From Hymenoscyphus infarciens (Eukaryota > Ascomycota > Leotiomycetes > Helotiales > Helotiaceae), in the NCBI GenBank assembly GCA_001414345.1, contig LLCB01000002.1, positions 372,001-436,000 on the forward strand: DNA of 64,000 nt, in the 5' to 3' direction. The translations under genes were made by a program, and so were the position numbers. Under the pieces are notes generated by a model. It was given only the letters and a program-made list of their open reading frames with translations, was not told the DNA's origin and made no database searches. Below, piece by piece: positions 7,407-49,637 of the stretch (positions are counted from its first letter, which is position 1; every line of letters begins with the position of its first letter).

Positions 7407-7657
7407 TACTTTACTTTACTTTTTTACTTCTCTACTACTTAACTATCTAACTATCTAGTATACTACTTAAGCCGCCGACTCGCCGAGTAATTTATACTCG
7501 TACTACTTCTTACTACTCTCTCTAATCCCTCTCTCTAATCTCTCTCTCTACTTCTTACTAATCTCTCTTTCTACTTCTTACTAATCTCTCTTTCTACTCT
7601 CTCTTACTACTCTCTCTTACTACTCTCTCTTACTACTCTCTCTAATCTCCTTTCTCT
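6768..7657. repeat. RIP-like tract depleted of CpA and TpG
   Basis: Reading base by base, I find only two CpA steps (near 7220 and 7259) and no TpG in about 890 bp, although CpG, CpT, CpC and TpA are all present. Repeat-induced point mutation in ascomycetes turns CpA into TpA (TpG into TpA on the other strand), so near-total loss of CpA/TpG with abundant TpA is its expected end state. The tract includes A-rich stretches (7120-7200) and a (TAC)n array. No surviving coding sequence. Confidence 0.75.
7343..7405 (+). repeat. (TAC)n microsatellite
   Basis: About twenty uninterrupted TAC/CTA trinucleotides, followed by TTTAC repeats. It lies inside the CpA/TpG-free tract. Confidence 0.9.
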
Positions 7658-7799
7658 GCCCGACTAGACTCTGCTCGACTCGACTCTGCTCGACTCGATA
7701 GTAGTAGTAGTACTAGTAGAGAAAAACGAGAGCTAGTAAGTACCTAGTAGCTAGAGCAAGACCCTTCTCGTCAGGTAAGAGAAGGAAGGAAGGAAGGAA

Positions 7800-7893
7800 G
7801 CGCTCTTAACCCTCTTAACCCTCTTAACTCTCTTAACCCTCTTAACTCTCTTAACCCTCTTAACCCTCTTAACCTTCTTAACCCTCTTAACTC
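7800..7893 (+). repeat. 9-bp minisatellite (CTCTTAACC)n
   Basis: About ten tandem copies of CTCTTAACC with variants (CTCTTAACT, CTTCTTAACC), directly preceded by a GGAA tetranucleotide run at 7784-7799. The complement (GGTTAAGAG) is only loosely similar to the fungal telomere unit TTAGGG, so I treat it as an interstitial minisatellite at the edge of the AT-rich block. Confidence 0.85.
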
Positions 7894-7899
7894 TCTCGA

Positions 7900-8610
7900 C
7901 AAAGACTTACTTCCAAAGTTTATAGGTCCGCTCCCCTTGATCCATTGCATGACCTATGTATGACCCAACACTTGTACTCTGACCTGCTTTCTGTTTCTTC
8001 CTCACAATCATACCAAGTCACCTCGCATTAAATATCATTTCACATTCACATTAACATCACATCACAACCCCAATCACCACAATCACAGCACAACACACAA
8101 CTCTCATTTTCAATTTCCATATATTTTCTCTCTACACCCCATACGCCATTTGTCCTGCCACATCAAGAAAAGAATAGAACGGTGGTCCCCCAAGGCGCAC
8201 TGCCGTATCATAGACTAAAAGCAAGTAAGGTTTTAAAAGACACTAAAATTGGGTTTCTTCTCTCCATCATCCACTCACAACAAGGAACCAAAAACATAGG
8301 AAAACACCGCTCAAGGAAAAACAAACAAAAAATCTCTCAGTCCAAAATATTCATAATCCTACTGTCAACCCAACCCCCTTCATTCTATATACTGATCCTA
8401 TGATCCTCCAAGAGAAAACGGGGTTGGGTATCCTCCACTATCCTCTCTAATGCATTTCTGCCGTGCTAGGTATCCTTTCGAGGCCCGGTGTGCATGTTGT
8501 ACAACAACGCTAAAAACAAAACCCTCCAAAATAGAAACCATGAAGAAAGCAAAAAAGAGTTGATCATTATATAAACAAAGACCCGCGTCCCTCAATCTTT
8601 CTCATGTTTC
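7900..8610. other. Intergenic / 3' flank of the Flc-like gene
   Basis: AT-rich, with CA-rich stretches (8030-8150). No supported gene. The part nearest 8610 should hold the 3' UTR and polyadenylation site of the minus-strand gene that ends there. Confidence 0.5.
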
Positions 8611-47529: not shown

Positions 47530-47795
47530 ATGGCTCCCCCTTATCGAAAATCTTGCTCAAATTGTGTCAAGTCAAAACGACGATGCGAATTCACGTTAGG
47601 GAATTGCCAGAGATGCACGGCCAAGCACCTTGTCTGTTCTCTAAATCGAAACGCCCGGCCAAATGTTGCAAACAATGTTTCCAATCAGGCAGAATCTGGG
47701 AATGTGAACTCACTTGGGAATTCTGCGGACCTCTCGGCTTACCCGATGGACAATTTGCCATTGTTTGGGGGTGATCTATGGAACGAAAACGGGGA

Positions 47796-47803
47796 GGCAG
47801 CAG
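47796..47803 (+). repeat. Target-site duplication, left copy
   Basis: GGCAGCAG, identical to 48512-48519. Eight base pairs is the duplication length of hAT transposons. Confidence 0.9.
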
Positions 47804-48511
47804 TAGGTCTGCACAACGAATAGATGAATAAAATATTAATTATTCATCATAAATATTAAATAAATATATAGTATTCGAGCGATTATTCGAGCGATAAGAG
47901 CTTAAATGAATATGTTACGAATAGTTTCTATTTATTAAGCTTAATATCCGCCCCCTAGGTCTTAGTATAGAGGGTTTATATAAGTTGAATTTTACTCTCT
48001 TTTTATATATATATTTAAACACAACTAAACTATAAACTCACTTACTTTTAATTATTATTAATAGATTACTATCGTCTCTACTCTTTATCACTTATATCAT
48101 GTGAAATAGGGTGTTATGTTAAAGGGTATCACATGACACCCCACTTTCTAAAGCATTATACACGTGACCTTTAAGCTAAGGTTTCAACTAAGGTTTCAGA
48201 CGTCGAAAGAGTCGAAAGGCTTCACTCTTTTCACCTTATTTAATAAGTTATCCACTTTTTTAACCCCCGGCGTAGCCTAATCGAGACGACGAAAGCGACT
48301 AAAGCGGATAATTTCGGGGGATTTTCATACATGTTTAGATAAGTGGGAAACCATACCAAAAGGGTGGAGAATACAGAATATTCATGAATAAACGACTGCT
48401 ATTTACACCCTAAACTCTCCTTATTCTTGAATAATTCGAAGGGTAATTTATCCGTGGAAAATCGTGAATATTCTGAATATATTCGTAGCTTTTATTCGTT
48501 GTGCAGACCTA
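47804..48511. mobile_element. Non-autonomous hAT-type element (MITE), 708 bp
   Basis: Ends are perfect 19-bp inverted repeats, TAGGTCTGCACAACGAATA at 47804-47822 and its complement at 48493-48511, flanked by an 8-bp direct duplication GGCAGCAG. The interior is AT-rich with no open frame for a transposase. Many GAATA/TATTC pentamers cluster within about 150 bp of each end (for example 47870-47890 and 48378-48497), as expected for subterminal transposase-binding sites. An inner pair TCATGTGA/TCACATGA lies near 48098 and 48129. Identical target duplications and perfect end repeats indicate a recent insertion. It must be mobilised by a transposase encoded elsewhere. Confidence 0.9.
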
Positions 48512-48519
48512 GGCAGCAG
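48512..48519 (+). repeat. Target-site duplication, right copy
   Basis: GGCAGCAG, matching the left copy exactly. Confidence 0.9.
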
Positions 48520-49637
48520 CTTTCATCGAGCCATCATGGCTTGCAACATTGACACCCGGACCAGACCTTGATATACAGTGGCCATCTCAAAACGCAGACG
48601 AGGAAGAACTTCAAATCGACCCCTGCAACCAGTTTGACGACAGTATCAATGCGGCTCAATTCACAGATGAGCCCATCGCGATTACAACCGGAGAAATCTA
48701 TCACGAAAGAGTCCGCTTCATATCTCGTCAATTCCAAGCTCATCCGGCCATGTTTCTGAAGAATGGCCAGACGCCTTTTATCCATCGTCCTCCGAATAAT
48801 CAGCCCCATCCGGCCGTTTTGCAGGATGCTCTAAGCTCTTGTGCACTGTATAGCTGTAAGACCCGGGATAATGAGCGTATGGTTTTTGGTAATTTGAGTA
48901 GGAAGGTTAAAGAGTTGGTTTATAGGCGGAGAAGTGAGCCCACAACCAGCGAGTTGTTGGCCTCGGTACAAGCGTTGTTGCTTTATCAGATTATAAGGTT
49001 GTTCGATGGCGATATTCGATTGAGGGCGGAGGCTGAGATGACTGAAGCTACACTGATCCAGTGGGCTGAAAAGCTGAATGAGCAGACGGAGCAGCTACCT
49101 CTAAGATATGAGGACAGTACTTCAGTGGCAACGAACTGGGATATATCATGGAAAGATTGGGTCTTCAAAGAAAGTTGTCGACGCACGATACTGTGTGCAT
49201 ATATGCTCCAAGGAACTTACTCGTTCTTGAAATTTGGCTACGATTCCGTGGCAAATAAAGTGAACACATTGTCATTTACAGCACAAGAAGCTCTCTGGTG
49301 AGTACTCATGCTTTACATTCAATATTGAAAGAACACTAAGCATTTCGCAGGAATACACAATTGGAATATGAATGGGAGGGAGTATTCAAGGAGAAACCCC
49401 ATTTTCAAGTGGTCATAAAGCAGTGGGACCTCGCTTTGAATGGAGCAACACCAGGTGATTTCGAAGATCTTGGTCTTATGGTATGTGTCGCTTTAAATGG
49501 ATCAAAAACATGTGACAAGTTCCCACCTTTATGTCAGGTAAGATTTTTGTATAATTGCTCCTTCTTGCACTAACAATCACGTCAGGATTCGTGAGGTGAG
49601 CGTTATAAACAAACTATAACTCGGCCAATTCACATAT

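Follow-up and report, generated by a model that had tools for sequence, protein, structure and literature searches.

Where new introns come from is an open question; a gene in the 64,000-nucleotide stretch of Hymenoscyphus infarciens DNA analysed here (the window) bears on it: a short transposable element lies in a coding exon, and its two junctions read like a splice donor and a splice acceptor. If the insertion is spliced, a fungal DNA transposon has been caught making an intron, with the ancestral state known. If it is not spliced, the locus is a useful counter-example: coincidence can furnish a transposon with ends that look convincingly like splice sites, as a test of the whole family makes visible. 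As argued below, we think it probable that a hAT-type MITE has recently inserted into the gene and truncates or otherwise disrupts it.

Anatomy of the insertion

The element is a non-autonomous MITE of 708 bp (47804-48511, plus strand) with near-full-length matches elsewhere in the genome. It is bounded by perfect 19-bp inverted repeats, TAGGTCTGCACAACGAATA at 47804-47822 and its minus-strand counterpart at 48493-48511, the latter including a CAG that ends at 48506. The 19-bp end sequence has two matches in the window, against 0.01 expected by chance. The element is flanked on each side by GGCAGCAG, an exact 8-bp target-site duplication (47796-47803 and 48512-48519, both plus strand). The element ends and the exact duplication within an exon, as described in the initial annotation, were thus recovered, and so were the junction strings GTAGGT and CCTAG. 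The hypothetical donor GTAGGT begins with the last G of the left duplication (47803), and the hypothetical intron, GTAGGT...CCTAG, spans 710 nt (47803-48512, plus strand). As had been claimed, its removal would be frame-neutral: the product would read GEAAAAAFIE where the empty site reads GEAAAFIE, a gain of 6 nt and two alanines. This is not evidence for splicing, because an 8-bp duplication from which one base is used on each side always leaves 6 extra nucleotides; we dropped frame preservation as an argument, since it is an arithmetic consequence of any 8-bp duplication. An internal donor, TAG|GTCTGC, was also discarded, since by the same arithmetic it yields 10 or 16 extra nucleotides.

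Without splicing, the frame of the gene runs into a TAG at 47821-47823. We propose that the MITE landed only recently in the first coding exon of this Zn2Cys6 gene, which has a single copy, duplicating GGCAGCAG as it did so, and that transcripts would read into the element and meet this in-frame TAG after 97 codons. The predicted product would retain the zinc cluster and lack everything after it, and the gene would in that case be disrupted. The sequences show that the insertion is precise, that a close relative has the site empty and that the family is multicopy and makes 8-bp duplications. Against disruption stand the plausible GTAGGT donor and the fact that exact splicing at the element ends would restore the frame.

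The interrupted regulator gene and its relatives

The first coding exon of the regulator opens with an ATG at 47530 and continues as an open frame of 91 codons up to the hypothetical donor (47530-47802, plus strand). Homology resumes past the insertion point, where the homologue P0001 is uninterrupted, in the remainder of the exon (48520-49297, plus strand). An ordinary intron of 53 nt probably follows (49298-49350, plus strand), with a GTGAGT donor, a CAG acceptor and a branch-like CTAAG whose A is 11 nt from that acceptor; the homologues align on both sides of this intron without a break (LW-N). In Pfam searches the gene product matched Fungal_trans (E=3.5e-05, just above the cut-off) and Zn_clus (E=0.00077, just below it). 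The 180 homologues found at E<=0.001 together span its whole length. Among the best 120 of these 180, the best-scoring named homologues are from Chlorociboria, Amylocarpus, a Mollisiaceae species and Stipitochalara, all of which we take to be Leotiomycetes, and the closest is P0001 (97% identity, 279 amino acids).

At the insertion point P0001 reads uninterrupted through GEAAAFIEPSWL (GEAAAFIE), and P0068 carries a similar uninterrupted stretch, GEATAFIEPSWL, in a linker region that otherwise diverges when 11 selected homologues are aligned with the gene product. P0001 starts inside the linker and ends, C-terminally, exactly where the window gene goes into its next intron. This end point suggests that P0001 was read from unspliced genomic DNA, and since it probably was, the absence of an intron from its insertion point is a good inference rather than a proof. 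These comparisons place the element in an exon.

The regulator gene is single-copy in the 65.6-Mb assembly, the next match having 36% identity across 210 residues. Searched against the genome, the DNA downstream of the insert matches itself alone, and no empty allele of the insertion site was found in the assembly.

As a separate observation, the C-terminal tail encoded by the last exon (49351-49590) departs from that of the relatives, and a W-L-G...R-W-G-L stretch that they carry is absent from all three frames of 49351-49590. The regulator gene may therefore carry other damage besides the insertion.

Candidate splice signals at the element ends

GTAGGT had been said to serve as donor in two other genes of the window. 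We found it with an intron-like continuation at four sites, one of which is convincing (minus strand, 10605, 51 nt); on this narrower basis GTAGGT is a plausible donor here. The convincing candidate also emerged ab initio: a first ab initio intron search of the window returned no joint candidates, and a second returned 20 noisy ones under a rough scoring that favoured branch-site and donor motifs.

Branch sequences about 40 nt before the acceptor had likewise been proposed. One does exist: CTGAA within TTCTGAAT (48471-48478, plus strand) is the sole sequence of branch-site type (YTRAH) among the final 75 nt, and its A (48476) lies 36 nt from the hypothetical acceptor. By the stricter CTRAY consensus the element offers no usable branch site near the acceptor, as none occurs within 200 nt of the hypothetical acceptor and the nearest is 232 nt away. 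The acceptor also has competitors, with AGs ending 24 and 6 nt before the required one. If the nearer were used, the CAG ending at 48506, one codon would be read before a stop. We tested 13 AGs in the interval 48301-48540, and two of them keep the whole frame, the CTAG at 48512 and a GAG at 48530.

These signals bear on whether the spliceosome excises 47803-48512 exactly, taking a duplication G at each side together with TAGGT and CCTA, and so makes a protein two alanines longer. Both splice strings are present and the frame would be kept. In RNA folding the two inverted ends pair (z=-5.5 against 20 shuffles), and the predicted 19-bp duplex could juxtapose the splice sites, yet it would also bury both of them. 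There is a reported precedent in Aureococcus, where an introner brings both of its splice sites with it and leaves its transcript 12 bp longer (PMC9860276). The distant CTRAY and the earlier AGs, one of them leading to a stop, argue against exact excision, as does length: at 710 nt the hypothetical intron compares with 53 nt for the gene's own putative intron, and with a range of 42-529 nt and a median of 57 nt given for introns of 226 core genes of Fusarium, a member of another fungal class (PMC5677156). Together with the family data below, in which G..G sites are not favoured among open-frame copies, this makes exact excision, in our judgement, decidedly improbable.

Splicing could also be irregular. 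When maize Ds1, a hAT element, lies in an exon, sequences close to its ends are reported to serve as splice donors and acceptors (PMC5432752, citing Wessler 1991), and cryptic sites in the present element might be used in a similar way, for example by joining the donor G|TAGGT to the CAG that ends at 48506, which is preceded by a T-rich stretch. The expected outcome would be mixed transcripts, mostly out of frame or stopped, with little correct product at most. Such splicing requires a branch site, which is not evident in the element, and we regard it as unlikely.

A multicopy family of hAT-type MITEs

A DNA search of the genome with the element gave at least 44 matches, of which at least 37, the window copy included, are near full length; the remainder include pieces of three further copies. 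These counts are lower bounds, as the search scores the best candidates alone. A pattern search for the terminal repeat returned 207 end matches at <=2 mismatches. From these data we assembled a sample of 48 distinct two-ended copies, which excludes four one-ended loci and a 4.2-kb copy, L071. An exact 8-bp duplication flanks 36 of the 48, and 43 have one with <=2 mismatches. Across the 86 half-sites of these 43 copies (both strands), T at position 2 or A at position 7 occurs in 36, against 23.7 expected (p=0.003), and G at position 1 or C at position 8 in 37, against 19.3 expected. The hAT target-site pattern described in PMC10368747 and PMC2803484 is nTnnnnAn, which in this family is a preference and not a rule. 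On the strength of the 8-bp duplications and the matching half-site preference we call the family hAT-type, and the element, judged by these features, is a member of a large multicopy family of MITEs.

No partner transposase was found among the 22 matches to Dimer_Tnp_hAT in the genome, every one of which has internal stops. These remnants are spread over contigs C14 and C558 and 19 others. In a by-eye comparison, none lies within 5 kb of the MITE ends among the end matches listed. Around the remnant L093, whose flanks are available, there are no MITE-type ends, and L094 is cut by a contig end. Among the remnants and end matches compared, we found no link between the degenerate hAT genes and the MITE.

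The long copies L071 and L092 (4.2 kb) were considered as autonomous elements and set aside, since each is a MITE with a nested AT-rich element. This second element, with ends around CGCTATTCTA/TAGAATAGCG, is nested in four MITE copies, L071 (contig C196), L092 (C99), L095 (C281) and L096 (C88). The nesting points differ, at about MITE positions 198-216 and 303-324, and the orientations in L071 and L092 are opposite, as if the AT-rich element preferred the MITE as a target. CpA/TpG is strongly depleted, in the manner of RIP, both in the element nested in L071 and at the L092 locus.

Splice-capable sites across the family

Splicing at the element ends requires that the duplication, read in sense, both start and finish with G. 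Given TAGGT...ACCTA ends, a G..G duplication of 8 bp would supply donor and acceptor in either orientation, and 8-2=6 would keep every frame. Ten of the 86 oriented sites (43 copies, both strands) have such a duplication, so that the joint presence of both splice strings is about a one-in-nine coincidence per orientation; put differently, about one in nine oriented insertions could start as a frame-neutral intron.

The initial annotation had seen in the element an introner-type family that makes introns, and this part of its interpretation found no support. An open frame of >=200 codons runs across the empty site in 11 of the 43 copies, by a test that misses short exons. Sense G..G duplications occur in 2 of these 11, compared with 8 of the 75 other oriented sites, which in this small sample is no enrichment (binomial p=0.33, Fisher p=0.38). 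The two are the window copy (L001) and L025; when the window copy, which prompted the search, is left out, the count is 1 of 10. The duplications of the other nine open-frame copies are unable to give sense end splicing. Within the limits of the sample, we see no introner-like bias of genic copies toward splice-capable sites.

The comparison was widened with candidates from two pattern searches, paired by eye (the wide pairs on C414 and C741 were left out); the ten newly added sites had about 700 nt of flank per side. Altogether 23 copies that are end-spliceable or nearly so, some with poor duplications, were examined, and 22 could be judged, the flank of L071 being too short. A long frame in the matching sense was found in two of the 22, again L001 and L025. 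For the L025 frame, Pfam gave no match, and none of 7994 scored candidates was a homologue at E<=0.001; for that reason L025 is not firm support for splicing.

Several copies interrupt recognizable genes at duplications that make sense end splicing impossible: L056 lies in a SET-domain frame, L058 in a short-chain dehydrogenase frame and the C189 copy (L084/L085) in an acetyltransferase frame. In L056 and L058 the Pfam domain runs across the insertion point. The C189 copy, in an acetyltransferase frame of 454 codons, is end-spliceable in antisense alone.

Counts of insertions in coding frames cut both ways. Copies lie in long open frames in 8 of 37 cases, against 91 of 740 nearby positions, so they are not depleted there (upper p=0.08), which could mean that such insertions are tolerated; random window positions fall in long open frames in 574 of 1500 cases, a proportion above that of the copies, and this comparison points the other way.

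Taken over this small sample, nothing in the sequences points to intron-making by the family at large. What survives of the newborn-intron interpretation is a mobile element, its insertion into an exon, the potential to keep the frame and an empty site in a relative. As part of the disruption that we favour, the splice-like junctions would probably have arisen from the transposon ends, TAGGT/ACCTA, together with a duplication that by chance starts and finishes with G. The same strings suggest that hAT-type MITEs of fungi might now and then behave as introners, with the present gene as the first case, an idea to which we give little credence.

Age of the window copy

We aligned 45 of the 48 copies, those of 600-720 bp, leaving aside three whose lengths differ. 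In this alignment L004 and L002 share 98% identity with the window copy. The window copy differs from L002 at 14 positions, 10 of them transitions with G/C here and A/T there, and 12 of its 17 differences from L003 are of the same kind. We read the window copy as young and little mutated. Its likeness to its nearest relatives may mean that the gene has not yet had long to degenerate, and, the copy being young, intact flanks tell us little about splicing. We accordingly dropped intact flanking frames as evidence, since L008, L056 and L058, which are not end-spliceable, have equally open flanks.

Comparison with known systems

The family resembles hAT elements and their MITEs, such as the MITE Mar (PMC3517528), in its short length, inverted ends, 8-bp duplications and T/A preference at positions 2/7; as a difference, no partner transposase was found for it. 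With maize Ds1, as characterized in PMC5432752, the element shares a hAT-type nature, an 8-bp duplication, a TAG start and possible splice sites in an exon. The supply of splice sites by hAT ends is thus known in kind, with the difference that splicing of Ds1 is reported as observed and that of the window element is a potential read from its sequence.

Introners with terminal repeats and duplications are described from algae and other groups in PMC9860276, where fungal introners are said to lack TSDs and TIRs. The present family is like the former in being a multicopy DNA element whose splice sites would derive partly from the duplication, with a small gain of codons; unlike those described there, it showed no bias toward splice-capable sites in our small sample, and its splicing is putative. 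The literature on fungal intron gain includes propagating twin introns (stwintrons). Among the open-access titles and abstract openings listed, we found no fungal hAT MITE spliced as an intron.

Elsewhere in the window, positions 7488-7919 consist of simple tandem repeats, including an array of the 9-bp unit CTCTTAACC.
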